A DNA stretch of 64,000 bases from Bacillus pumilus (GTDB lineage Bacteria > Bacillota > Bacilli > Bacillales > Bacillaceae). Location: assembly GCF_009937765.1 (NCBI RefSeq), contig NZ_CP047089.1, positions 372,001-436,000 of the forward strand, given 5' to 3'. The translations under genes were made by a program, and so were the position numbers. Each line of letters begins with the position of its first letter. Within the stretch, counting starts at the first letter, position 1. The notes beneath the pieces are model-generated. The model was given only the letters and a program-made list of their open reading frames with translations, was not told where the DNA came from and did not search any database. Positions 1,403 through 34,907 of this stretch are shown here, in pieces.

Positions 1403-2393
1403 AATTGAACAGGCAGCGCTGTTATTGAAGCAAAACGAAGTAGTCGCTTTTCCGACAGAAACGGTGTATGGACTAGGGGCTAATGCAAAAGAGACAGAAG
1501 CTGTCATGAAAATATATGAAGCGAAAGGGCGTCCAAGTGATAATCCATTGATTGTCCACATTGCCGAGGTTGAGCAGCTTCATGAATTTGCACAAATAGA
1601 AAGTGAAAGAGCAAAGGCATTGATGAAAGCCTTTTGGCCTGGTGCTTTAACCATTGTGCTTCCGTGTAAGCTGGGCACTTTATCAAAGCAGGTCACAGCG
1701 GGTTTATCCACGGTCGGTGTGAGAATGCCTGACCATCCGATTGCGCTTGAGCTTATCCGAACGGCTGGTCTGCCGATTGCCGCTCCAAGTGCCAACCGTT
1801 CAGGTAAACCTTCTCCGACACAAGCTGACCATGTAGCAAGTGATCTCGATGGGAGAATCGCTGGGATTGTCGATGGTGGTTCAACTGGTATTGGCGTTGA
1901 GTCAACGGTCGTATCCTGTGTGGATGAGATTCCAGTCATCCTAAGACCGGGCGGAATTACAAAAGAAGCTTTAGAAGAGGTAGTAGGAACGGTCAGTATT
2001 GACCCAGGGCTGACAAAAAAGGACGAAGCGCCTGTATCGCCAGGGATGAAATACACACACTATGCCCCTGAAGCTAAAATGTACCTTTTTCATGGAAGTG
2101 ATGAAGAGTTGCAGCGTCACATTCAAACATACCAGACAGAAGGTTTAAAAGTGGGTGTGCTGACAACAGAAGAAAAGAAATCGTTGTTTGCGGCAGATGT
2201 TGTTTTCAGCTGTGGATGGAGAGAAAAACCTGAAACGATAGCAGCAAACTTATATCGCGTGCTGAGACAATTTGATGAGACAGATGTAGATGTTATTATT
2301 TCAGAAACCTTTTCAAAGCAGGGGGTTGGTTCAGCGATTATGAACCGTCTGCAAAAAGCGGCAGGAGGGCGCACTCTCTCTTCATTCAAATAG
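1338..2393 (+). CDS. ywlC: Threonylcarbamoyl-AMP synthase (Sua5/YrdC family)
   Basis: Makes threonylcarbamoyl-AMP from threonine, bicarbonate and ATP, the first step of t6A37 modification of ANN-decoding tRNAs. The 351-residue length shows a two-domain Sua5-type enzyme: a YrdC domain over about residues 20-210, with the KGRPSDNPL nucleotide/RNA-binding motif and SANRSGKPSPT, followed by a linker (SPGMKYTHYAPEA, near 240) and a Sua5 C-terminal domain. The ribosome site AAAAGGAG precedes two adjacent ATGs, so the start may be one codon later. DnaA boxes upstream and within the first codons suggest control by DnaA. Confidence 0.93.
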   Translation: MMLNTKRWSVDLEKDLSTYYPQIEQAALLLKQNEVVAFPTETVYGLGANAKETEAVMKIYEAKGRPSDNPLIVHIAEVEQLHEFAQIESERAKALMKAFWPGALTIVLPCKLGTLSKQVTAGLSTVGVRMPDHPIALELIRTAGLPIAAPSANRSGKPSPTQADHVASDLDGRIAGIVDGGSTGIGVESTVVSCVDEIPVILRPGGITKEALEEVVGTVSIDPGLTKKDEAPVSPGMKYTHYAPEAKMYLFHGSDEELQRHIQTYQTEGLKVGVLTTEEKKSLFAADVVFSCGWREKPETIAANLYRVLRQFDETDVDVIISETFSKQGVGSAIMNRLQKAAGGRTLSSFK

Positions 2394-2453
2394 TTCTAAC
2401 CCTTCTTGGACAAACATAGGTTAAAGGAGAATGCGTGTCCAAGGGGGATTTAC

Positions 2454-3008
2454 ATGTACGAACTAGCCGGCGAATTGCTGACGCTCAGCATCATGGCTTT
2501 TGCACTAGGGATGGATGCTTTTTCGGTTGGACTTGGCATGGGAATGATTCAGCTGAGGTTCCGCCAGATCATTTATATTGGACTTGTCATTGGGATATTT
2601 CATATGTTTATGCCGCTTTTTGGTATGCTAACAGGTCAACTCCTATCAGGCTGGCTCGGTCTCCTTGCCACCTATATCGGCGGGGCGCTGCTTTTGGTGC
2701 TCGGTCTGCAAATGATCATTGCGTCTATTCGAAAAGAAGATAAGCCATTTATCGCACCAGTTGGCGCTGGTCTTGTTCTTTTTGCAACAAGTGTCAGTTT
2801 AGATAGTTTTTCCGTTGGTTTAAGCCTTGGAATTTACGGTTCTCATGTATGGATGACCATTTTATTGTTTGGTTTTTTTAGTATGATCCTCACTTGGCTT
2901 GGATTATTACTCGGTAAACAGGTTCGATCATGGGTGGGATCCTATAGCGGGGCGCTTGGCGGAATCATTTTACTAGCCTTTGGTATCAAATTATTATTTC
3001 CGCTCTAG
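2454..3008 (+). CDS. mntP: Manganese efflux pump MntP
   Basis: A 184-residue membrane protein of the MntP family (YwlD) that exports Mn2+. Six hydrophobic segments are visible, and the two repeat-like helices carry the family acidic motifs [14 protein letters not shown] (about residue 20) and [16 protein letters not shown] (about residue 115). I chose the ATG at 2454, which follows AAGGGGGAT, over an in-frame ATG at 2406 with poor ribosome site, because homologues begin near MYELAGE. No yybP-ykoY-like riboswitch is apparent upstream. Confidence 0.9.
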
Positions 3009-3071
3009 TCAGCCTCCTTACACAACATGTAGAATGAAATGCTATATAATAGAAGAAAAGGAGGGCGAAAG

Positions 3072-3530
3072 ATGAAAATCTTATTTGTTTGTACGGGAAA
3101 TACATGCAGAAGTCCGATGGCTCAAGCCCTTTTTGCTTCAATTGCACAAGATAAAGGTTTAGAGGTCACTGTGAAATCAGCGGGCATTTTTGCCTCAGAT
3201 GCTGGGAAGGCTTCGCCTCAAGCAGTCGAAGCATTATTTGAGAAAAGCATTCCGCTGAATCACTCTTCAGCAAAACTGACAGAGGATCTTCTGCGAGAAG
3301 CTGATTACGTTTTCACCATGACCATGCAACATAAACAGTTGATTGTGGAACAATATGCACATGCAAAAGACAAGACCTTCACTCTAAAGGAATTCGCGAC
3401 AGGAGCAGAAGGTGATGTATCCGATCCATTCGGAGGTAGCCTGTCTGTTTATCAGGAAACACGTGATGAGCTTGAAGGATTGCTCCATCAGCTGGCTGAG
3501 AAATTGAAAAAGGATCGGACATCCTCATAA
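3072..3530 (+). CDS. ywlE: Protein-arginine phosphatase YwlE
   Basis: A low-molecular-weight protein-tyrosine-phosphatase fold of 152 residues. The N-terminal P-loop CTGNTCRSP supplies the catalytic cysteine and arginine (CX5R); the threonine in the loop is the residue known to give YwlE its preference for phosphoarginine. The DPFGGS motif near residue 120 holds the general acid aspartate. It reverses McsB phosphorylation that marks proteins for ClpCP. I chose the start after GGAGGGCGAAAG; an in-frame ATG at 3039 adds 11 unsupported residues. A terminator follows. Confidence 0.92.
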   Translation: MKILFVCTGNTCRSPMAQALFASIAQDKGLEVTVKSAGIFASDAGKASPQAVEALFEKSIPLNHSSAKLTEDLLREADYVFTMTMQHKQLIVEQYAHAKDKTFTLKEFATGAEGDVSDPFGGSLSVYQETRDELEGLLHQLAEKLKKDRTSS

Positions 3531-3542
3531 TGGACAACCTGT

Positions 3543-3569
3543 AAAACCGTTGCAATAACGGTTTTTCTG
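3543..3569 (+). terminator. Intrinsic terminator after ywlE
   Basis: The stem AAAACCGTT / AACGGTTTT closes a five-base loop and is followed by TTC. A sigma-A-like promoter (TTGCAA, 16 bases, TAAAAT) follows at about 3577-3604 and may drive rpiB-ywlG. Confidence 0.7.
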
Positions 3570-3670
3570 CTTTTGTTTGCAAATGGCCAAGCAGAGGTTA
3601 AAATATAACTGTAAATAAAGAATAAATGTAAGGCATAACAGATCAACTCACCCTTAGGAGGAATTGCCCG

Positions 3671-4120
3671 ATGAAAGTAGCTATTGCATCCGATCACGGC
3701 GGAACGAATATTCGTGAAGAAATCAAACAACTGATGGATGAATTGAAGATTGAATACATTGATATGGGTTGTGAATGTGGATCAGGTTCTGTAGACTACC
3801 CAGATTATGCTTTTCCTGTAGCCAACATGGTGGTAAACGGAGAAGTGGACCGCGGCATTTTAATTTGCGGGACAGGCATCGGTATGAGTATCTCAGCAAA
3901 CAAAGTAAAAGGAATTCGCTGTGCGCTGGCGCATGATACATTTAGTGCGAAAGCGACTAGAGAACATAATGACACAAACGTCCTTGCAATGGGAGAACGA
4001 GTCATTGGACCTGGATTAGCACGTGAAATTGCGCATATTTGGCTGACAACAGAGTTTACTGCAGGACGTCATGCTGTACGGATTGGTAAGATCGCTGAGT
4101 ACGAAGAAAAGCACCTATAA
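3671..4120 (+). CDS. rpiB: Ribose-5-phosphate isomerase B
   Basis: Interconverts ribose 5-phosphate and ribulose 5-phosphate in the non-oxidative pentose phosphate pathway (YwlF in B. subtilis). The 149-residue protein has the RpiB/LacAB signature: ASDHGG at residues 6-11, the anion hole CGTGIGMSISANK around residue 65 with the catalytic cysteine, and a downstream HNDTNVLAMG segment. A strong ribosome site, TTAGGAGGAATT, precedes the ATG. It is followed closely by ywlG (12 bases). Confidence 0.95.
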   Translation: MKVAIASDHGGTNIREEIKQLMDELKIEYIDMGCECGSGSVDYPDYAFPVANMVVNGEVDRGILICGTGIGMSISANKVKGIRCALAHDTFSAKATREHNDTNVLAMGERVIGPGLAREIAHIWLTTEFTAGRHAVRIGKIAEYEEKHL

Positions 4121-4132
4121 GGAGCGCTTAAC

Positions 4133-4672
4133 ATGAACATTGGTCAAGATTGGCTTGGAATGTTAAAAGAGTTTCATCAAATGGTCGAACTGCGTGCTGG
4201 GCACATCTTAGTGATCGGATGCAGTACATCAGAAGTGGCTGGGGAGCATATTGGGACAGCAGGAAGTGAGCAAATCGCTGTGTCTATCTATCAAGAATTA
4301 GATCAGTTAAGACGAGAAACTGGCATTGAGCTGGCTTTCCAGTGCTGTGAGCATCTGAATCGTGCTCTTGTTGTGGAAGAAGAAGTGGCTTTCCGGCTTA
4401 ACCTAGAGATTGTGGAGGCAGTACCTGTCCGAAAGGCGGGTGGTTCGATGGCGGCTCATGCGTATCAGCACATGGAACATCCTGTGTTAGTTGAATCCAT
4501 CGAGGCGCATGCTGGAATTGATATTGGTGATACATTCATTGGGATGCATCTAAAGAGAGTCGCTGTACCTGTTCGCCTCAGTCGCCATCAATTAGGGCAT
4601 GCACATGTGACATTTGCGAAAACGCGTCCGAAGCTGATTGGCGGAGAACGAGCGGTTTATACAAGATCATAG
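4133..4672 (+). CDS. ywlG: UPF0340 family protein YwlG
   Basis: A 179-residue conserved protein of the TIGR01440/UPF0340 family; its function is not established. It starts 12 bases after rpiB with ribosome site TAAGGAG, so the two are co-transcribed. Visible conserved features are [19 protein letters not shown] near residue 28 and a glycine-rich [11 protein letters not shown] near 101. No membrane segment or signal peptide is present. Confidence 0.88.
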
Positions 4673-4770
4673 CTTAGATATATTCTAATAAAATATTGAA
4701 TGATGAAGGCGCTTCACCACTTGAATATTCGGTTTTTCGCAAAAAAAGAAGTCGATTTTCCAAAAAAACT

Positions 4771-4800
4771 TTTACATTTCACTCAAAAACCGTGTACAAT
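4771..4800 (+). promoter_or_regulatory. Sigma-A promoter of glyA
   Basis: TTTACA and TACAAT are separated by 18 bases, about 49 bases before the glyA start. A few tens of bases upstream, ATTCGGTTTTT (about 4727-4737) resembles a PurR half-box (CCGAAT on the other strand); PurR control of glyA is known in B. subtilis but is only suggested here. Confidence 0.65.
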
Positions 4801-4848
4801 GAGATGGTGAAAACATCGAATGGAAATAGATTGGAGAGGATTTCGCTG

Positions 4849-6096
4849 ATGAAACATTTACCTGAGCAAGACGCACAAGTATTCAAGGCAATTCAACTAG
4901 AGCGGAAACGCCAGCAGGACAAAATTGAATTAATTGCATCAGAAAACTTTGTAAGCGAAGCAGTCATGGAAGCCCAAGGTTCTGTATTAACAAACAAATA
5001 TGCAGAGGGCTATCCTGGTAAACGCTACTATGGCGGCTGTGAACATGTAGACGTTGTAGAAGATATCGCACGTGACCGCGCAAAAGAAATTTTTGGCGCT
5101 GAGTATGTGAACGTACAGCCTCACTCAGGTGCTCAAGCGAACATGGCCGTATACTTTACCATTCTTGAGCATGGCGATACAGTGCTAGGTATGAACTTGT
5201 CACATGGCGGGCATTTAACACACGGAAGCCCTGTTAACTTTAGTGGTGTACAGTACAACTTTGTAGAATATGGTGTTGATAAAGAAACACAGCATATCGA
5301 CTATCAAGATGTACTTGAAAAAGCACGTGAACATAAGCCGAAGCTCATTGTTGCGGGTGCAAGTGCATACCCACGTCAAATTGATTTCAAAAAGTTCCGT
5401 GAGATTGCGGATGAAGTCGGTGCTTACTTTATGGTCGACATGGCTCACATTGCAGGTCTTGTTGCAGTAGGTCTTCATCCAAATCCAGTTCCATATGCAG
5501 ATTTTGTGACAACGACGACTCACAAAACATTACGTGGACCACGCGGCGGAATGATTCTATGCCGTGAAGAGTTTGGTAAAAAGATCGACAAATCGATCTT
5601 CCCTGGTATTCAAGGTGGACCACTGATGCATGTCATCTCTGCAAAAGCTGTTTCTTTCGGTGAAGTATTGAACGGAGATTTTAAAACATATGCACAAAAC
5701 GTCATTGACAATGCAAAGCAGTTAGCTGAAACCCTTTTATCTGAAGATATTCAGCTTGTGTCTGGTGGAACGGATAACCACCTTGTTCTTATCGACTTGC
5801 GTTCTCTTGGCATCACAGGAAAAATTGCAGAAAATGTTCTTGATGAAATCGGTATTACAGTGAACAAAAATGCGATTCCTTATGATCCAGAAAAACCTTT
5901 TGTCACAAGTGGTGTACGTGTTGGTACAGCAGCAGTGACAAGCCGCGGTTTCGACCAAGAGGCAATGAAAGAAGTCGGTTCTATTATTGCGCTTGCTCTC
6001 AAACATCATGAAGATGAAGCGAAATTAGAAGAAGCGAAAAAGCGTGTATCTGATCTGACTGCCCGCTTTCCTCTATATAACGAATTAGATTATTAA
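4849..6096 (+). CDS. glyA: Serine hydroxymethyltransferase
   Basis: PLP enzyme that moves a one-carbon unit from serine to tetrahydrofolate, giving glycine and 5,10-methylene-THF. The 415-residue protein has the full fold-type I signature: [11 protein letters not shown] near residue 25, YPGKRYYGG near 50, and the PLP lysine in [14 protein letters not shown] near 225. The reading frame stays open 51 codons further upstream, but that stretch covers the promoter and is not coding; the ATG at 4849 follows GGAGAGGA. It stands alone between its own promoter and a terminator. Confidence 0.96.
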
Positions 6097-27977: not shown

Positions 27978-28127
27978 TTATTTTGTTTCTCTATGAAGGG
28001 TATATTTCTTTAACCGAGGAGAATATTTTTTTAACTCCAGTCGATCCGGATTCGTTCTTTTATTCTTTGTTGTGATATAGTTTCTGTCACCAGTTTCCGT
28101 ACAGGCTAAGGTAATTTTCACACGCAT
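27978..28127 (-). CDS. rpmGC: Zinc-independent ribosomal protein L33 (third L33 type)
   Basis: A 49-residue gene read directly from the reverse strand. The protein starts [20 protein letters not shown] and ends [10 protein letters not shown]. It is a clear L33, but only one cysteine remains of the four in the zinc ribbon (CTET and YSPR replace CXXC), so it is the zinc-free form. The ribosome site AAAGGAGGG lies upstream of the ATG, and a Zur box lies just beyond. As I recall, the corresponding gene in B. subtilis 168 is frameshifted; here it is intact. Confidence 0.9.
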
Positions 28128-28150
28128 CAGTAATAGGGCCCTCCTTTAAT

Positions 28151-28165
28151 TCGTAATGGTTACGA
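28151..28165 (-). promoter_or_regulatory. Zur box upstream of rpmGC
   Basis: TCGTAATGGTTACGA matches the Zur consensus TCGTAATNATTACGA with one change, 24 bases before the rpmGC start. Confidence 0.82.
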
Positions 28166-28235
28166 TTTGTATTTTAAAATGATCACGAAAGAATGTCAAG
28201 CTTTGTAGGGTGATCATGCAAAATGATCAAACAAC

Positions 28236-28264
28236 AGGGGTATCGAATGTTCATTGATACCCCT
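28236..28264 (-). terminator. Hairpin downstream of the YwnF-like gene
   Basis: AGGGGTATC and GATACCCCT form a perfect nine-pair stem. On the reverse strand it is followed by only a weak T-rich stretch (GTTGTTTG). Confidence 0.6.
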
Positions 28265-28269
28265 CTCGA

Positions 28270-28692
28270 TTAATAAAAGTCACCAAGCTCTTCTTCGTAT
28301 TCACCTTCATATTGCTGAATGTCACTAGGAATTTCTTGAAGAAATGCTAGACCGCCTAATATCAGCATCAGGATAATGGCGATGAATGAGAGAATGGCTG
28401 CGACAATACTTGATATGGCAAACAGCGTCTGCATTTTCATCATCTTAGCATATTGTTCCAATAACTCTTCGTAAGAAGTATCAGGAGCTTGAATTAATTG
28501 TTCAGCTGCGTTTACAGATTTTTGTACATGGATTCCCATCATAATGAGGAAGACGCCAAGTGCAGCAGGAAGAACAAGCCAAAAGCCAATAAGAATAGCT
28601 AGGCCGCCTGAAATATAGAGAAATATACTACCAACTTTTCCCCACTTTGTGATCGAATGAAGAGATTGAATGATTTTCTCAGTTTGTTGCAA
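28270..28692 (-). CDS. YwnF-like membrane protein
   Basis: A 140-residue protein with two pairs of membrane helices (about residues 20-55 and 88-118) joined by a soluble linker, and an acidic tail ending EEELGDFY. By size, topology and position before ywnH it is probably the YwnF (DUF5392-like) protein, but I am going on memory of synteny. Function unknown. It marks the conserved left border of the peptide island that follows. Confidence 0.6.
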   Translation of the reverse strand: MQQTEKIIQSLHSITKWGKVGSIFLYISGGLAILIGFWLVLPAALGVFLIMMGIHVQKSVNAAEQLIQAPDTSYEELLEQYAKMMKMQTLFAISSIVAAILSFIAIILMLILGGLAFLQEIPSDIQQYEGEYEEELGDFY

Positions 28693-28991
28693 TGATGTTC
28701 ACTCCTTTATGTATTCACTCTTTATCATACTTGAGCAGGTAGTACTTTAGGAAGAGTGAATGTAGAACAATTTTTAAAAATTTCTATCTATACTTTACTA
28801 TTAATGGATAAATAAATTATCTTCGAATAAGAAAAAAGTAACATTTACCATGAAATTTAACGACAATTTATGTCAAAAATAAGATTAGTAGTTAAAAATA
28901 ATTAGTAAAATTATCAAAATATGTTGTTAGTTGTCTTGTAATTGGTTATTATTGTGTTGTATTACCATAAAAATTGGAAGGTGGAATTCAT
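28693..28991 (+). promoter_or_regulatory. AT-rich control region of the cysteine-rich peptide gene
   Basis: About 300 bases, very rich in A and T, without a gene. A possible promoter is TTGTAA (about 28936) and TATTAC (about 28960), 18 bases apart, close before the peptide gene. Such AT-rich upstream regions are typical targets of AbrB/Rok-like transition-state regulators; that is inference. Confidence 0.4.
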
Positions 28992-29186
28992 ATGTTAGAT
29001 CGTTTTTTAAACAAAATGACCAATGTTCAACCTGCAGCTTCAAGATGTATTTTGCAAAAATTAGTCACTTCATGCAAGTCAGCACCAACTTGTTTCCTTC
29101 AAGGTGTTGGAACTTTCCGTTACTACGTGGATCGTGATACAGGTGAGATTTGTACTAGCCAAGAACGCATTAGATGTGGCTGCTAA
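28992..29186 (+). CDS. Cysteine-rich cationic small peptide, candidate exported antimicrobial or signal
   Basis: A 64-residue product with cysteines at 19, 28, 34, 54, 62 and 64 and a net charge near +4 (nine Lys/Arg against five Asp/Glu). The N-terminal 40 residues look amphipathic (LDRFLNKM, CILQKLVTSCK). The C-terminal part is YYVDRDTGEIC...CGC. There is no Sec signal and no double-glycine leader. The ribosome site GGAAGGTGG precedes the ATG. Nearby are an ABC exporter without peptidase domain and three redox proteins, which suggests export and formation of three disulfides. Leaderless bacteriocin is one possibility; I do not recognise the family. Confidence 0.7.
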   Translation: MLDRFLNKMTNVQPAASRCILQKLVTSCKSAPTCFLQGVGTFRYYVDRDTGEICTSQERIRCGC

Positions 29187-29219
29187 ATTCAAGGATTTTA
29201 TTTAATAGGATGTGAACGC

Positions 29220-29624
29220 ATGAGCATATCTTCAATCTCATTCTTAACAAATGCTATGCAGACGTCAAACAGTCGTCAAGCGAGTCAACCATCCAATTCT
29301 TTTTTAAACCAAGCAGCGAAAATTGTTCAAGGCGACCATTCTCCAGAAGAGAGAAAGGCATTATTTCAACAACTGACCCTAGTTCAGCAAGGAAAAGATT
29401 TAGAGCTTCATGTGTCTAAATTAAAGGAACTAGAGAAAGAGGTTCAAAAAGAATTGTCTTCTTCGTCCGTTACTGTGAATCAACATGGTGACCAAGTAGA
29501 TATTTCAACTGAGGCTCGCAGTGAGTTTGAACAAGCTGAGGAACAAGCCACAGCTTCAAGTGAAGCTGGTGAAATTGCCGCAAGGGAAAAGGATCAGGAT
29601 GTTCAGGTAGATCCAAAACAATAA
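29220..29624 (+). CDS. Small acidic soluble protein paired with the peptide gene
   Basis: A 134-residue hydrophilic protein starting 33 bases after the peptide gene and ending at a strong terminator, so both form a two-gene transcript. The first 35 residues are rich in Ser, Asn and Gln. A predicted coiled coil covers about residues 50-80 (ELHVSKLKELEKEVQKEL). The segment GDQVDISTEARSEFEQAEE resembles short motifs in FlgM-like and other flagellar proteins. It has no membrane segment. It could be an immunity, chaperone or unrelated protein; I do not recognise it. Confidence 0.6.
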   Translation: MSISSISFLTNAMQTSNSRQASQPSNSFLNQAAKIVQGDHSPEERKALFQQLTLVQQGKDLELHVSKLKELEKEVQKELSSSSVTVNQHGDQVDISTEARSEFEQAEEQATASSEAGEIAAREKDQDVQVDPKQ

Positions 29625-29629
29625 AAAAA

Positions 29630-29661
29630 GAGGCATGTGTTTTTTGATCTTCACATGCCTC
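29630..29661. terminator. Bidirectional terminator after the peptide unit
   Basis: GAGGCATGTG and CACATGCCTC form a perfect ten-pair stem, with an A-run before and T-rich sequence within and after; it serves both convergent units. Confidence 0.75.
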
Positions 29662-29669
29662 ATTTATGT

Positions 29670-30179
29670 TTATTTTTCAAACAACCTTGAATAAAGACCA
29701 TCTGGAAAAGGGGCTGCATATGAAATTGTTTCATCTTCTTCTACCATGATGTAATATGGAAATTCTTCAATCTGGAATATGTTAGTCATTTGTTCGTCCA
29801 CTGAGATAATTCGCATGTTGGTTTGGTTATCACGATATAATTCTTGATCCTCTTCTTTCCCATTCTTTAGCAAAATACTAAAAGGAATGTCTAGTTCACG
29901 CTGCTTTTTCGTTTCTAAGAATTGTTCCAGCGATGGGATGCAATGCGGACATGCTGTGTCAGTGAATATAAGCAACTGTTGCTTGTGATTGTTTTGCAGT
30001 AAATCATTCATTTGAATAGGTGATGGTTTTTCGAGTAGCGGATGAACAAGTTTTTGTCCAACATGATGGACTGGTAAGATGATTAAGTCCATCTCGTGTT
30101 TTAGATAGATCATGATTCCGATCGTCAATAAAAGGCTGCAGACAATAAGAGTTAACTGTAAAAGTAAGATTGAAGTCAT
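29670..30179 (-). CDS. Membrane-anchored thioredoxin-like protein with CPHC active site
   Basis: A 169-residue protein: one N-terminal membrane helix (about residues 2-26) and an extracellular thioredoxin-like domain. The redox site is DTACPHCIPSLEQF near residue 81; CPHC is the DsbA/BdbD-type pair that favours disulfide formation. A cis-proline-like position is seen in IEEFPYYIMVEED. The start at 30179 follows AGAGGACGATAT; an ATG 14 codons upstream is possible. It is divergent from the exporter operon. I infer that it acts outside the membrane on the cysteine-rich peptide. Confidence 0.72.
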   Translation of the reverse strand: MTSILLLQLTLIVCSLLLTIGIMIYLKHEMDLIILPVHHVGQKLVHPLLEKPSPIQMNDLLQNNHKQQLLIFTDTACPHCIPSLEQFLETKKQRELDIPFSILLKNGKEEDQELYRDNQTNMRIISVDEQMTNIFQIEEFPYYIMVEEDETISYAAPFPDGLYSRLFEK

Positions 30180-30277
30180 CGTATATCGTCCTCTCAGAGT
30201 GAAGTTACGCAGAGCTATCATAATATAAATATCAAAAATATGTCAATTATACTAAATGGTGTAAGGTGGAGCGTTTG

Positions 30278-32077
30278 ATGAGTACAGTGAACCATTGTTT
30301 ATATGCAATCTCTTATACTTGGAAAAGAAGTCGATCATATCTTCTGTTAACTCTATTCATCCAAGTGATCGTTGGCTTTATGCCTTTGGCTAGTGTCTGG
30401 ATTATTCAAACATTGATTAATGAAATTATTTTATTTATGACTTCTTCTGGAGACATCCAAAAGGTTTTATGGTTATTTGGATTGCAAATGGTCATTGTGG
30501 TTTTAGGGTATGGGCTTCAATTCATTCTTCAGCTTAGTCAGCAGAAAGCGACAAATTTGATTGGTTTGCATTTGAAGGGTGAATTACTTCAAAAGGCGAT
30601 CAGGCTTCCATATATTACATTTGAACACCCGTCTTTTTATAATGAAAGTCAACGTGTGATGAACAGTCATCAGCATGTTCTGAGTATGGTTAGAAGTATA
30701 TTTACAATCATGAGCGCATTGATTACTGTTGTATCACTTCTCATTTATATGATTGGTATCCATTGGGGCTTGGCGGTTATTCTGATCTTATGTACTCTGC
30801 CTGTCTTATGGATTGAGCTTTTCTTTGGAGGCGCACGGTATCAATTAAACCGGATGTTAACGGCCAATGATCGAAGAGAAATGTATGTATCCGACCTTGT
30901 TGCACAGCGAGATTCATTGAAGGAAATCCGTTTATATGGAATTGGAGATTACCTTCTTCAAAAGTGGAAAGGTCATTATGTAAAAAGTGCAGATGAAAAA
31001 TATAAATTACTAAAACGTCAGGTTCGCTGGGAGATGGCAGGCGGATTGCTTATGACATTTGCCTATGTGTGTTGTGGTCTTTTTATTGTCTTTCTTATCT
31101 TTCAAAAGAAATTAGCTGCGGGTACGTTTGTCGCTGTACTCCAAGCTGTGCAAAATATTCAAAGCGGTTTTCAAGATTTAACGAGGGAATGTTCTAGTTT
31201 ATATGAAACGAGTCTCTATATTGATGAAATGAGATCTTTTCAAAAGAGAGAAGAAGAAATTGATGAGCAGACAGAGGAAGGGGCATCGCTTCGGAGGATT
31301 GAATGTATTCAGTCCATTACGCTTGAAAATCTCTCTTTTACCTATCCGAATATGAAAACGCCTGCTATTGAACATATACATTTTCATATCGATAAAGGTG
31401 AACGCATTGCATTGGTCGGGGATAACGGATCAGGTAAGACGACCTTGATTAAATGTTTGACCGGTTTATATGATCCAGACAAGCCGAATATGCAAAAGGT
31501 CAATGGTGAATCGATTTCGACCATTTATAAAAAATCATATCATGCGAGAATGGCTGTCCTTTTTCAAGATTTTATGAAATACGAATTCACTGTGAAAGAA
31601 AACATTGGGTTTGGCCGTATTGACGAAATAGATAAGGGAGAGCGCATAAGCACAGCTGCCCGGCAAGCAGGCATAGAGAAAAGAATTCATCAAATGGAAG
31701 AAAGATACGATGCGCAGCTTGGCCGTTTTTTTGAAGAAGGTCATGAACTGTCTGGCGGACAATGGCAAAAGCTTGCGATGGCGAGGACCTTTTTTAGAGA
31801 AAGTGATTTTATTATTTTAGATGAACCGACCTCTGCTCTCGATCCACTATCAGAGATTTCACTCATTCGAAAGCTTTTTGATCATACGCAGGATCAAGGG
31901 GTCTTATTTATCACACACCGTATGGGGGCGGCCCGCTTAGCAGACCGGATCATCGTGATGAAAGATGGTGCTTTCGTTGAAGAGGGGAACCATGAAGAGC
32001 TAATGGTGCTAGATGGAGAGTACAAAAGGCTTTACGAGGCACAATCCCAACTATTTCAACAAAAGGAGATGGCGTAA
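30278..32077 (+). CDS. ABC exporter, fused membrane and ATPase domains
   Basis: A 599-residue half-transporter of the exporter type: six membrane helices in about residues 20-320, then an ATPase with Walker A GDNGSGKTT (near 385), signature LSGGQWQKLAMAR (near 495) and Walker [13 protein letters not shown], and the switch histidine in FITHRMG. The peptidase C39 domain of double-glycine bacteriocin exporters is absent. It starts at the ATG after AAGGTGGAG. A GTG start of the next gene lies two bases after its stop. By context it exports the cysteine-rich peptide or provides self-protection against it. Confidence 0.82.
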   Translation: MSTVNHCLYAISYTWKRSRSYLLLTLFIQVIVGFMPLASVWIIQTLINEIILFMTSSGDIQKVLWLFGLQMVIVVLGYGLQFILQLSQQKATNLIGLHLKGELLQKAIRLPYITFEHPSFYNESQRVMNSHQHVLSMVRSIFTIMSALITVVSLLIYMIGIHWGLAVILILCTLPVLWIELFFGGARYQLNRMLTANDRREMYVSDLVAQRDSLKEIRLYGIGDYLLQKWKGHYVKSADEKYKLLKRQVRWEMAGGLLMTFAYVCCGLFIVFLIFQKKLAAGTFVAVLQAVQNIQSGFQDLTRECSSLYETSLYIDEMRSFQKREEEIDEQTEEGASLRRIECIQSITLENLSFTYPNMKTPAIEHIHFHIDKGERIALVGDNGSGKTTLIKCLTGLYDPDKPNMQKVNGESISTIYKKSYHARMAVLFQDFMKYEFTVKENIGFGRIDEIDKGERISTAARQAGIEKRIHQMEERYDAQLGRFFEEGHELSGGQWQKLAMARTFFRESDFIILDEPTSALDPLSEISLIRKLFDHTQDQGVLFITHRMGAARLADRIIVMKDGAFVEEGNHEELMVLDGEYKRLYEAQSQLFQQKEMA

Positions 32078-32078
32078 G

Positions 32079-32636
32079 GTGAGTGCCTTTTATTTTATAG
32101 GTGTCTATTTATTAGGAATCGTCTTTGCAGGTGCATGGATTGATAAAGTGAGAAAACAAACGGCGCATATTCAGCAGATGAATGCATATCGATTGCTGCC
32201 ACCTACGCTCACGGCGCCCGTGTTTTATTTGTTTTTGACTGTTGAATTAGCTTGTACGAGCTTATTGTTCGTGTGGAACATGTCTCTTGTACCTGCGATT
32301 GGTCTAACCGCGCTTTTATGTATTTATACTGGAGCGGTCACCTTCAATTTATTGAGAGGACATCGTAACATTTCATGCGGCTGTGGAGGTTTGCTTGAAA
32401 ATGATCATCTTCACTGGGGAATTGTGATTCGTAATGTGTTGATGCTGGCTCTTGTGATTGGGTTGTTTTATGTACATCCCCATGTAGAAACAATTCCGTG
32501 GACTTTTCATATTATTTGTTTTCTCATTGCAGTGGCTGTCTGTTTGATTATAGCGGTGGGGAAAACAATCATGATGTTCAAAAGAAAATGGGTGAATCAA
32601 TTTGAATCGTTTATAGAAGGAGACCAAGTGAAATGA
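32079..32636 (+). CDS. MauE/DoxX-like redox-associated membrane protein
   Basis: A 185-residue protein with four to five membrane helices. The loop NISCGCGG near residue 104 is the paired-cysteine signature of the MauE group, which works with MauD to form the disulfides of the methylamine dehydrogenase small subunit. The start is GTG at 32079, nine bases after AAAAGGAG inside the end of the ABC gene; an open stretch further upstream overlaps that gene and is not coding. Its stop overlaps the next start by four bases, so the three genes are one operon. Confidence 0.75.
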   Translation: MSAFYFIGVYLLGIVFAGAWIDKVRKQTAHIQQMNAYRLLPPTLTAPVFYLFLTVELACTSLLFVWNMSLVPAIGLTALLCIYTGAVTFNLLRGHRNISCGCGGLLENDHLHWGIVIRNVLMLALVIGLFYVHPHVETIPWTFHIICFLIAVAVCLIIAVGKTIMMFKRKWVNQFESFIEGDQVK

Positions 32637-33163
32637 CTGATATTCTACTAATTATTGTGTTACTCATTGTCATTGCTCAGCTGGCAGTTGTGTTTTTGCT
32701 TGCTCGCTTTATCGGGAAATTTATGAGTAAAATTAAATCCTTTGATGGGATTGAGTTAAAGGAAGCGGATATTGGTGATGCTGCGCCGTTATTTCGTAGC
32801 TATACACATTCAGGGAATAAGGTCATTTTAAAGGAGTATTTACAGAACGGAAGAGCCGTGATGCTGTTATTTGTAAATACCACTTGTATGACATGCAAAA
32901 GCATTTTGTCTGATATGCATCAGCACATCTCTAACGATGATACTCAATTCATTTTCATCAATGGCGATGAACAAGGAGATGATGGATTGCTCCTTCAATT
33001 GCTGCCAGATCATGCTGTGTATGTGCGCTCTTCGCAAATCATGGAGCTGTATGGGGTAACGGTTGTTCCGCAAGCGATTTTGATAGATGAACATGGTATC
33101 ATCCTGCAAAGAAAAGCTGTTCAAAATGTGAAACAGTTTGAACAGCTGTTACACGCATCATAA
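32633..33163 (+). CDS. MauD/TlpA-like membrane-anchored redoxin
   Basis: A 176-residue protein: an N-terminal membrane helix (about residues 4-24) and a thioredoxin-like domain whose site is NTTCMTCKSIL near residue 84. The later VVPQAILIDEHG has the cis-proline loop of TlpA-type proteins. The pairing of this protein with a MauE-like partner is the same as in methylamine dehydrogenase maturation. Start overlaps the MauE-like gene (ATGA). It ends at a terminator that has been split by a repeat element. Confidence 0.78.
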   Translation: MTDILLIIVLLIVIAQLAVVFLLARFIGKFMSKIKSFDGIELKEADIGDAAPLFRSYTHSGNKVILKEYLQNGRAVMLLFVNTTCMTCKSILSDMHQHISNDDTQFIFINGDEQGDDGLLLQLLPDHAVYVRSSQIMELYGVTVVPQAILIDEHGIILQRKAVQNVKQFEQLLHAS

Positions 33164-33165
33164 AA

Positions 33166-33394
33166 AAGCGTCTCTTTGTTGGAGAGACGCTCCAGCGTGT
33201 AGACAAACCCTCGCATTCGTTGTCAGTCCTGCGTGCTGGTGCTCACGAATGTCAAATTCGCTCCGCGCCAGTACTCGTCCTTCCTAGAATTCAAAGGTTT
33301 TCTATCACGCTGAAAAGGAGACAAAGGGCTAAAATCAAGATCATTTTAGCCCTTTGTCAACAATCTGAAGCGTCTTTTTGTTGGAGAGACGCTC
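33166..33394. repeat. Structured repeat element (copy 1) flanked by duplicated terminator hairpins
   Basis: A 175-base core (33193-33367) begins CAGCGTGTAGACAAAC and ends in a hairpin ACAAAGGGCTAAAAT...ATTTTAGCCCTTTGT. Internal arms CAGCGTG/CACGCTG pair as well. It is flanked by 27-base direct copies (33166-33192 and 33368-33394, one mismatch) of a hairpin with arms GCGTCTC and GAGACGC. That hairpin is the shared terminator of the convergent redoxin and ywnH genes. A shorter copy of the core is at 48919-49059. Confidence 0.85.
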
Positions 33395-33397
33395 GTT

Positions 33398-33892
33398 TTA
33401 TAATTCTTTTCCTAGAATGTCTAAATCGTATCTGCTGCCGTCCATCTCTGCGATGCGTGGCAGGTGACCCCATGTCTCAAAGCCGTGCTTTTTAAATAAT
33501 CGAATGCTGGCTTCGTTGTGCCCGAAAATAAAGGCGAGTAACGTTCGAATGCCTAGTGAAGGTGCCAACTCAATGGCCTCTTGTAAAAAAAGTGACCCTA
33601 ATCCTTTTCCTCGGTAGTCTTGGTTTAAGTAAATACTCATTTCAACGGTTCCGTTGTAGGCAGGTCTTCCATAAAAGGTTTCAAAGCTGAGCCAGCCATA
33701 AATATGACCATCCTCATCCGTTTTCACATAGAGAGGTCTTTTCTCTGAATGATTCAAAAACCATTGCCGGCGGTCTTCAACTGAAACTGGTTCTGTATCG
33801 GCGGTTACTTCTCTTGAAGCAATGGTCGAATTGTAAATATCAACGATTGCTTTGAGGTCATCTTCTGTTGCTATACGGTTGAAAGTTTTCAC
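33398..33892 (-). CDS. ywnH: GNAT acetyltransferase of the phosphinothricin N-acetyltransferase group (YwnH)
   Basis: A 164-residue GNAT enzyme. The acetyl-CoA-binding loop is DYRGKGLGSLFLQEA near residue 88, the substrate face carries FETFYGRPAYNGTVEMSIYL, and the end is MDGSRYDLDILG. The family acetylates phosphinothricin and methionine sulfoximine-like compounds. I chose the GTG at 33892, seven bases after GGAGG; an ATG five codons upstream overlaps that site. As in B. subtilis, it neighbours spoIIQ. Confidence 0.88.
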   Translation of the reverse strand: MKTFNRIATEDDLKAIVDIYNSTIASREVTADTEPVSVEDRRQWFLNHSEKRPLYVKTDEDGHIYGWLSFETFYGRPAYNGTVEMSIYLNQDYRGKGLGSLFLQEAIELAPSLGIRTLLAFIFGHNEASIRLFKKHGFETWGHLPRIAEMDGSRYDLDILGKEL

Positions 33893-33974
33893 AATAAAGT
33901 CCTCCATCTTTTTTCATTCATCATACATATTATTGATGCGATTGCGCAAAATAAAAAGAAAAATGATTTCGTGT

Positions 33975-34004
33975 GTATATATTTTTTGAAAAGTGTTCAG
34001 AATG
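33975..34004 (+). promoter_or_regulatory. Candidate sigma-F promoter of spoIIQ
   Basis: GTATA and GTTCAGAATG are 15 bases apart, close to the sigma-F pattern (GYWTA and GGNNANANTR, one mismatch), just before the spoIIQ ribosome site. Confidence 0.5.
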
Positions 34005-34022
34005 TTGCTGAGGTGATGAAAA

Positions 34023-34907
34023 ATGAGAGAGGAAGAAAAGAAACGTACTTCCAAAATCACAAAAGTTCAGCAATTTTTCCGTAAGCGCTGGGTATTCCCT
34101 GCAATTTACTTGGTCAGCGCAGCGGTCGTGTTAACAGCCGTTCTTTGGTATCAAGCTGTATCAAAAGATGTGAAAGACCAACTATCTGATGGAAATCAAA
34201 CAGGGCAAGAACAGCGTGATGATGCCGTTGAAGTTGGAAAGCCAATTGAAAATGTTGCCATGCCAGTCCAGAATTCTGATAATGTTTCTGTCGTGAAAAA
34301 GTTCTATGAAGCAGATGCTGATCAAAAAGAAAAAGAAGCAGCACTTGTAAACTATAATAACACCTATACCTTGAGCAAAGGTATTGATCTTGCAGACAAA
34401 GATGGCAAAGTGTTTGATGTCACAGCTGCTCTTAGTGGAACAGTGGTTCAAGCGAAAAAAGATCCAGTTCTCGGTCATGTCGTTGAAATTGAACATGAAG
34501 ATGGATTATCGACTGTTTACCAATCGTTGTCACAAGTGAGTGTTAAAGAAGGCGATGAAGTGAAGCAGAATGATGTCATCGGTGCTTCTGGTAAAAATCT
34601 TTATGGTGCTGAAAGCGGCAACCATGTGCATTTTGAAATTCGTATGGAAGGTTTAGCGCTTAATCCACTTAGCTTTATTGACAAGCCTGTTTCAACTATT
34701 GAAAAGGCCGCACAAGAAGTGACGGAAGAAGCAAAAGAACCTGCTCAGCCCAAAGCTGATGAAAAAACGAAGGAACCTGCTGCTGAAGATAAGGCCAAAG
34801 AGCCTGCTGGAGAAAAGTCTGATGAGAAGGGGAAATCCTCTGATCAAGAAAAGTCTTCTGATTCCTCTAAAGACAGTAGTCAATCTGAAGAAACAAAACA
34901 ATCTTAA
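34023..34907 (+). CDS. spoIIQ: Stage II sporulation protein Q
   Basis: Forespore membrane protein that forms the SpoIIQ-SpoIIIAH channel needed for engulfment and sigma-G activity. The 294-residue protein has a short cytosolic N-terminus, one membrane helix (about residues 22-42) and a LytM-type M23 domain. That domain holds SGKNLYGAESGNHVHFEIR near residue 190, where the peptidase metal site is incomplete as in other SpoIIQ. The C-terminal 60 residues are a low-complexity Lys/Glu/Pro/Ser tail (repeats of KEPA), slightly longer than in B. subtilis. Confidence 0.96.
   Translation: MREEEKKRTSKITKVQQFFRKRWVFPAIYLVSAAVVLTAVLWYQAVSKDVKDQLSDGNQTGQEQRDDAVEVGKPIENVAMPVQNSDNVSVVKKFYEADADQKEKEAALVNYNNTYTLSKGIDLADKDGKVFDVTAALSGTVVQAKKDPVLGHVVEIEHEDGLSTVYQSLSQVSVKEGDEVKQNDVIGASGKNLYGAESGNHVHFEIRMEGLALNPLSFIDKPVSTIEKAAQEVTEEAKEPAQPKADEKTKEPAAEDKAKEPAGEKSDEKGKSSDQEKSSDSSKDSSQSEETKQS

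Follow-up and report, generated by a model that had tools for sequence, protein, structure and literature searches.

Laterosporulin, a defensin-like class IId bacteriocin from Brevibacillus (PF17861/NF033806), is described as containing three disulfides (PMC6510442). The genes beside its own are given as a hypothetical protein, an ATP-binding cassette (ABC) transporter whose lack of a protease domain was noted, and 'a dehydrogenase gene' (PMC3293901). Laterosporulin clusters that their authors considered complete as cloned failed to be expressed in other hosts (PMC6510442). The decRiPPter study of 2020 proposed that MauE and MauD modify cysteine-rich precursors in three Streptomyces families (PMC7794033), and MauE has been speculated to aid the β-subunit disulfides of methylamine dehydrogenase. 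Here we describe an island of about 4.48 kb in Bacillus pumilus (one contig, 3.77 Mb), located in a stretch of 64,000 nucleotides (NZ_CP047089.1, positions 372,001 to 436,000) that we call the window. The island combines the gene of a six-cysteine peptide with genes for a peptidase-less ABC exporter, a MauE-family membrane protein and two redoxins. Judged from its sequence, it is very probably a self-contained pathway for the export and oxidative folding of one secreted disulfide-rich peptide, which is itself probably antibacterial.

The island was placed at 28825..33301 (no strand) because its flanks abut cleanly in an island-less relative: when window positions 28001-34200 were compared by blastn with the corresponding locus of that genome (G061, locus L203), matches stopped at 28824 and restarted at 33302. 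In order, it holds the 64-residue peptide gene (+), an acidic open reading frame (ORF) of 134 residues (+), a hairpin, a redoxin gene with a CPHC motif (−) and an operon of ABC, MauE and CMTC-redoxin genes (+). The peptide gene (28992..29186, + strand) has AAGGTGG shortly 5′ of its ATG. Its product begins MLDRFLNKMT and carries six cysteines in 64 residues, spaced x8, x5, x19, x7, x1; an isoelectric point (pI) of 8.9 and a charge of about +3.4 at pH 7 bear out the first-pass annotation, which had described a cationic six-cysteine peptide of this length. The ratio of non-synonymous to synonymous substitution (dN/dS) is about 0.08 over 11 pumilus-group genomes, with residues 1-15 identical in all of them; the exporter gives 0.06 and the redox proteins 0.12-0.17. 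This ratio, together with presence in 11 genomes, rules out a chance ORF, and the peptide ORF is a real gene under strong purifying selection. Close relatives of the peptide are encoded on contigs named Bacillus pumilus, B. safensis, B. australimaris, B. zhangzhouensis and B. xiamenensis (six loci). The peptide matched no Pfam and no NCBIfam family at E up to 1, no credible solved relative was found, and tblastn (E up to 1) returned no plasmid copy; distant members of its family do sit on Exiguobacterium plasmids.

The operon begins with the exporter (30266..32077, + strand, likely starting at the ATG at 30278), which matches PF00005 with 103.7 bits and PF00664 with 27.0 bits, slightly below the cut-off of 28; no C39 peptidase is present among the 25 best Pfam matches listed. 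It is followed by the MauE protein (32079..32636, + strand; ISCGCGG loop), which at 77.1 bits against a PF07291 cut-off of 27 belongs to the MauE family, and by a membrane-anchored MauD/TlpA-like redoxin with a CMTC motif (32633..33163, + strand; PF00578, PF13098). The second redoxin, CPHC (29670..30221, − strand), is divergent from the ABC gene, thioredoxin-like and provided with an N-terminal hydrophobic anchor; its Pfam matches, Thioredoxin_2 among them, all fall under the cut-off. Neither redoxin reaches the cut-off of the MauD equivalog TIGR02661 (188.6 bits), the CMTC protein scoring 55.4 and the CPHC protein 19.4 bits. The CPHC protein likely starts at residue 15 of its ORF, since a promoter-like site overlaps the longer start and the ORF of a relative has 169 residues. 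That site (30246-30217) agrees at 11 of 12 positions, though the region has no excess of such sites (12 against 15.4 in shuffles). The first-pass annotation had listed the peptide and, downstream of it, the peptidase-less ABC protein, MauE with its CGCGG and the CMTC redoxin; all of these hold, and the CPHC redoxin and the 134-residue ORF had been overlooked.

The whole island is syntenic in 11 genomes, the window and ten relatives, and all 11 genomes with close peptide homologues have it entire. A peptide search was positive in 10 of 61 genomes, counting the one that contains the window; the eleventh genome, G064, lies outside that set. MauE was found in 13 of 44 genus genomes, strongly in 11. 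Two pumilus-group genomes (ywnH 98% and 93% identical) lack the machinery and also the peptide. One, G061, has a clean empty site. The other, G020, has a deletion scar between ywnH and ywnF (locus L202, 2589-2847), where only MauD-like redoxin and ABC remnants are left and the peptide is gone. From the whole, empty and scarred states we conclude that peptide and machinery are gained and lost together. The first-pass annotation had proposed asking whether peptide homologues co-occur with the three-gene operon, and they do: a peptide-family profile matches 11 of 397 order genomes, all of them among the 20 that are MauE-positive (hypergeometric p 2e-16).

The gene set recurs across Bacilli. Of 397 genomes in the order sample, the MauE profile (A1) matches 20, spread over 13 of 135 genera; in the class sample it matches 47 of 398, from 22 of 145 genera. 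One MauE protein used as query matched 12 plasmid records, four of which were read. Our tally holds 66 MauE loci, 51 with an exporter within 4 kb and 15 without. From the 62 MauE places of the class sample, 40 were fetched, 3 were already known and 19 stand outside the tally. Of the 11 pumilus-group loci, L030 and L039 are counted; the remaining nine, among them the window, were omitted as near-copies. Locus L114 duplicates plasmid locus L045 and is counted among the 51 but removed from the per-genome count (41); L075 is also among the 51, though its ABC protein groups with an unrelated exporter in the tree. A weak MauE match in G002 (L041) was dropped before the tally, as it sits in a 438-residue protein that is presumably NfeD-like. 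Two class-sample genomes, G579 and G598, have six and four MauE matches, respectively.

Small ORFs near the MauE set were tallied if preceded by a Shine-Dalgarno-like site. One with at least six cysteines occurs at 42 of 51 MauE/ABC loci and at 0 of 15 MauE loci without exporter (Fisher 5e-9, the rows being related); for at least four cysteines the counts are 49 of 51 and 2 of 15. With each genome or plasmid counted once they become 35/41 and 40/41. Measured over noncoding length in the same loci, there are 56 ORFs with at least six cysteines in 96.0 kb near the set against 4 in 53.1 kb far from it, and 85 against 12 with at least four. The CxC motif of MauE is present in 50/50 loci, of which 49 also have one or more CxxC redoxins nearby; L069 has no redoxin by profile but a redoxin-like ORF seen by BLAST. 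Distances among ABC, MauE and MauD proteins are congruent in a Mantel-type test (r 0.81, 0.64 and 0.76; 45 of 51 loci), to which shared ancestry may contribute; L114, L121, L124, L075, L030 and L069, the last for having no redoxin by profile, were left out. Plasmid-borne and tandem peptide copies exist in other genomes. The incomplete PLSDB gene table omits the peptide ORFs of the Exiguobacterium plasmids and enters those of Priestia megaterium as hypothetical proteins. Ten small ORFs besides the window's were compared with Pfam and NCBIfam, and laterosporulin alone had a family name. Beyond Bacilli, none of the 8 MauE loci read from six phylum-sample genomes has the full gene set; two have only other ABC proteins (66 and 74 bits) and two have distant, chance-like six-cysteine ORFs. 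In that sample MauE occurs in 9 of 249 genomes, three of which (G000, G003, G433) belong to Bacilli.

The family of the window peptide was aligned (alignments A3, A4 and A5). In A3, which comprises 22 precursors, five of them pumilus-group near-copies, window residues C19, C28, C54, C62 and C64 are invariant and C34, D47 and G51 nearly so; the C-termini are mostly C-x(6-7)-C-x-C, with C-C in three. Additional cysteines at window positions 21 and 48 come as a pair: both are present in 5 rows, neither in 19 and a single one in 1 (25 rows; p 1e-4, the rows being related). One of the five, L131, lacks C19, and the alignment there is unsure. Ancestry alone does not explain the pairing, because within the three-gene array of L115 two paralogues have both cysteines and one has neither. 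The pair resembles a fourth disulfide and argues, at the level of sequence, for oxidised cysteines in the product. We note that a single cluster (L128, G549) encodes three different six-cysteine precursors.

Precursors in which the first cysteine comes late often share a further feature, namely hydrophobic residues at positions 2, 5 and 9 and polar residues at 3 and 7. The window's MLDRFLNKMT is one example; MLDQFSKLIG, MIKKLMAKMT and MFKKLLQKLG are others. The pattern, defined after viewing the sequences and with three registers allowed, fits 28 of 40 distinct late-cysteine N-termini, a few of which are likely chance ORFs, against 4.3 in shuffles (standard deviation 2.0, maximum 11 in 2000). 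It fits none of 30 early-cysteine precursors. The cores behind this N-terminal tag vary, from 4 cysteines in 32 residues up to 8 cysteines. As the tag is common and the cores differ, its recognition by a shared exporter or by the folding proteins is the natural inference. The window peptide has no GG before its first cysteine and no evident Sec signal. The first-pass annotation was thus right that there is no double-glycine leader, but its no-leader reading needs amending for this conserved motif of another kind. In a tree of 48 exporter proteins, where L039 stands for the window group, this group clusters with Exiguobacterium-type and tagged systems in an eight-member clade that has full support; the 'leaderless' groups of that tree were set by eye and the 18 N-termini compared were hand-picked. 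Tagged precursors of 32 residues with four cysteines, perhaps giving two-disulfide products, lie beside MauE/ABC sets in L127 (5386-5484) and L130 (6745-6843). The MauE variant CxCFG is found at seven loci, all with untagged precursors that start MAC, MGC or MC. A Bacillus set at L040 (G019, 2354-5539) has the order MauE, redoxin, 54-residue six-cysteine peptide, ABC, and its peptide is of the MAC type and carries no tag.

Laterosporulin belongs to the untagged kind. PF17861 is present in 3 of 398 class genomes, each time within a cluster of peptide, redoxin-like ORF, ABC, redoxin and MauE (L142, L146, L152); this association is a feature found here and not a published family criterion. In L146, Pfam recognises MauE and, below the cut-off, the second redoxin. 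Its peptide matches the solved chains 4ozk, 6lwy ('Laterosporulin3') and 6lwz, the first two of which start at residue 2 of the ORF, consistent with loss of Met. The window ABC protein is 28% identical to that of the laterosporulin cluster over 590 positions and the MauE proteins are related by profile (E 3e-9); on these alignments the two sets of machinery are homologous. The two systems share a six-cysteine peptide of similar size, a peptidase-less ABC protein, MauE, CxxC redoxin-like proteins and the lack of a double-glycine leader. They differ in cysteine spacing, in gene order, in the MAC start without tag of laterosporulin and in its MauE, which has CxCFG and not CGCGG. Two laterosporulin genomes (G562, G498) have a second set (L136, L137) of MauE, two redoxins, ABC and three tandem eight-cysteine MGC peptides.

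No published link of laterosporulin to MauE was found among open-access papers; in two open-access accounts compared, an ABC transporter beside laterosporulin is named in one and redox genes there in neither. On MauE and bacteriocins, PMC7794033 was the sole relevant open-access work, judged by titles. Its Streptomyces families resemble our island in having MauE, and in one family also MauD, by a precursor with at least eight cysteines. They are actinobacterial, and as there described they come with no peptidase-less exporter, tag or laterosporulin link. The island had been called undescribed in the first-pass annotation, which is only partly right because the 2020 Streptomyces proposal and laterosporulin precede it. 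What is new is the peptide family, the breadth of the gene set, the tag and the tie to a bacteriocin already characterised; the theme itself had already been glimpsed.

Our reading is built on a conserved peptide, a recurring gene set, an all-or-none island, correlated cysteine pairs, a shared N-terminal motif and the linkage to laterosporulin. The precursor would be made without a double-glycine leader or evident Sec signal, and its residues 1-10, capable of forming an amphipathic helix, would probably be the recognition tag for the machinery. The peptidase-less exporter would move the reduced peptide out; there, at the outer face, its three disulfides would be formed and/or reshuffled by the two CxxC redoxins together with MauE and its CxC. 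The product is most likely antibacterial, of the laterosporulin functional type, because laterosporulin, a bacteriocin, has related clusters.

Several observations weigh against this reading. Nine of 51 loci have no six-cysteine ORF and two have none with at least four cysteines, and some of the four-cysteine ORFs are chance-like. The 11 of 11 co-occurrence was not blind, since alignment A3 was drawn mostly from loci found through MauE; the profile could have detected members outside MauE genomes among the 397 and detected none. In the laterosporulin cluster L146, the first redoxin-like ORF has a CxxC, no Pfam match and a weak profile match (21 bits). Kinship of the window peptide itself with laterosporulin was rejected: hhalign of A4 against A6 (three laterosporulins and two eight-cysteine relatives) gives a probability of 0.1%, and PF17861 is unmatched. 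No clear immunity gene was recognised in the island, and the peptide is 92-100% identical among relatives; such conservation is more than one expects of a fast-evolving bacteriocin and would also suit a signalling role. Finally, the CxC loop of MauE is flanked by K/R and, from averaged charges, predicted to be cytoplasmic, which suits an isomerisation shuttle over a simple oxidase.

The last point raises a serious alternative, to which we give a little less than an even chance. The pathway would be the same, but MauE and the MauD-like redoxin would carry reducing power outward, in the manner of CcdA/DsbD, and isomerise wrong disulfides, the primary oxidation being spontaneous or due to the other redoxin or to host Bdb proteins. 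The positive-inside placement of the MauE loop favours such a relay. So do the matches of the CMTC redoxin to AhpC-TSA (33.7 bits, cut-off 26) and, weakly, to the ResA and DsbE models, a group that is usually reductive, and the presence of at least two CxxC redoxins (MauD profile) in 31 of 50 loci. Against it, the topology is a charge argument only, MauE has no credible solved relative (matches were chance-like only), and published statements on MauE tie it to disulfide formation. The first-pass claim that the pair has been recruited to oxidise an exported peptide is strengthened by the co-occurrence and by laterosporulin in related machinery, save that 'oxidise' could be 'isomerise'.

That the same kit matures a secreted signal or developmental peptide and not an antibacterial one is possible, though we think it rather unlikely. 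Near-invariance across species at the dN/dS given above, a chromosomal position fixed within the group and the lack of a recognised immunity gene all speak for such a role. Related machinery nevertheless serves laterosporulin, a bacteriocin (PMC3293901), copies elsewhere are plasmid-borne and tandem, and the island is non-essential because it is lost or absent in two relatives. Chance adjacency of the peptide to an operon serving another substrate could be read from the separate transcription units and the convergent gene between them, but is highly improbable given the co-occurrence, the all-or-none island and the peptides directly beside or within the gene set in L040, L072, L116 and L128. 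Equally remote is the reading that the peptide stays inside the cell with free thiols, as a metal-binding peptide or a toxin-antitoxin component: zinc binding is common in small cysteine-rich proteins, but here an exporter and CxxC redoxins are linked to the peptide, a cysteine pair is gained in correlation, and laterosporulin, from such a cluster, has three disulfides.

Beyond the single island, we lean, with some reserve, towards a Bacilli-wide modular pathway in which an amphipathic tag would direct unrelated cores of 4-8 cysteines to a peptidase-less ABC exporter and a MauE/redoxin folding relay. A tagless branch would make laterosporulin, and dozens of small ORFs, the window's included, may encode further products. 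If so, MauE, whose role has so far only been speculated upon, would gain a testable function in a tractable Bacillus, and a route would be suggested for disulfide formation in a bacterial defensin-like peptide. MauE with a peptidase-less ABC protein would also be a genome-mining handle for small peptides that may be absent from gene tables. The pathway may bear on the failed expression of laterosporulin clusters in other hosts (PMC6510442), for which other causes are possible.

Other described systems are more distant. Methylamine dehydrogenase maturation shares MauE (by Pfam) and a MauD-like redoxin, but Pfam/NCBIfam scans found no methylamine dehydrogenase gene, glycosyltransferase or protease among the island proteins, and the MauD equivalog cut-off is unreached. 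Sublancin and glycocin loci, with SunT and BdbB, likewise combine a disulfide peptide, a dedicated ABC exporter and a thiol oxidoreductase. The island differs from these in lacking a C39 match, a double-glycine leader and a glycosyltransferase and in having MauE in place of the BdbC/BdbB type, in keeping with the first-pass view that it is not sublancin-type. A double-glycine class II bacteriocin or glycocin was rejected on the same grounds, with no GG before the first cysteine and no C39 among the listed ABC matches. Leaderless class II bacteriocins lose no leader during export; the island encodes no protease, and its conserved N-terminal motif could be either cleaved or retained. Actifensin and the C6 defensin-like bacteriocins resemble the window peptide in their six cysteines, C-x-C end and nearby ABC transporters, and actifensin has three disulfides (PMC6989792). 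Actifensin has a 32-residue leader, however, and the main text of that paper uses neither the word thioredoxin nor the word oxidoreductase. The C6 pattern given there, C-x5-12-C-x3-C-x9-10-C-x4-5-C-x-C, does not accommodate the window spacing.

The acidic 134-residue ORF (29220..29624, + strand; pI 4.8) is probably co-transcribed with the peptide gene. It occurs in 11 of 44 genus genomes, precisely those with the island, and has no Pfam/NCBIfam match above cut-off; an immunity protein or regulator would be a guess. On the Exiguobacterium plasmids L044 and L045, an FtsX-type permease and ATPase pair just past the peptide genes is a plausible immunity transporter. Between the peptide/134-residue unit and the converging minus-strand redoxin lies a hairpin (29630..29661, no strand; 10-bp stem, 12-base loop, −17.2 kcal/mol), possibly a bidirectional terminator. 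It stands outside our terminator scan, which took loops of 3-8 only; terminator-like sites in the region are above chance (8 against 2.9 in shuffles). The island is flanked by a DUF5362 gene and a GNAT gene, which we take to be ywnF-like and ywnH-like, respectively; they abut directly in G061, so that the location between a YwnF-like gene and ywnH given in the first-pass annotation is right in substance. The G+C content is 38.5% in the island and 41.4% in the remainder of the window. The exporter gene of L124 (4269-6111) occupies two overlapping frames, which reflects either a frameshift or a sequencing error.

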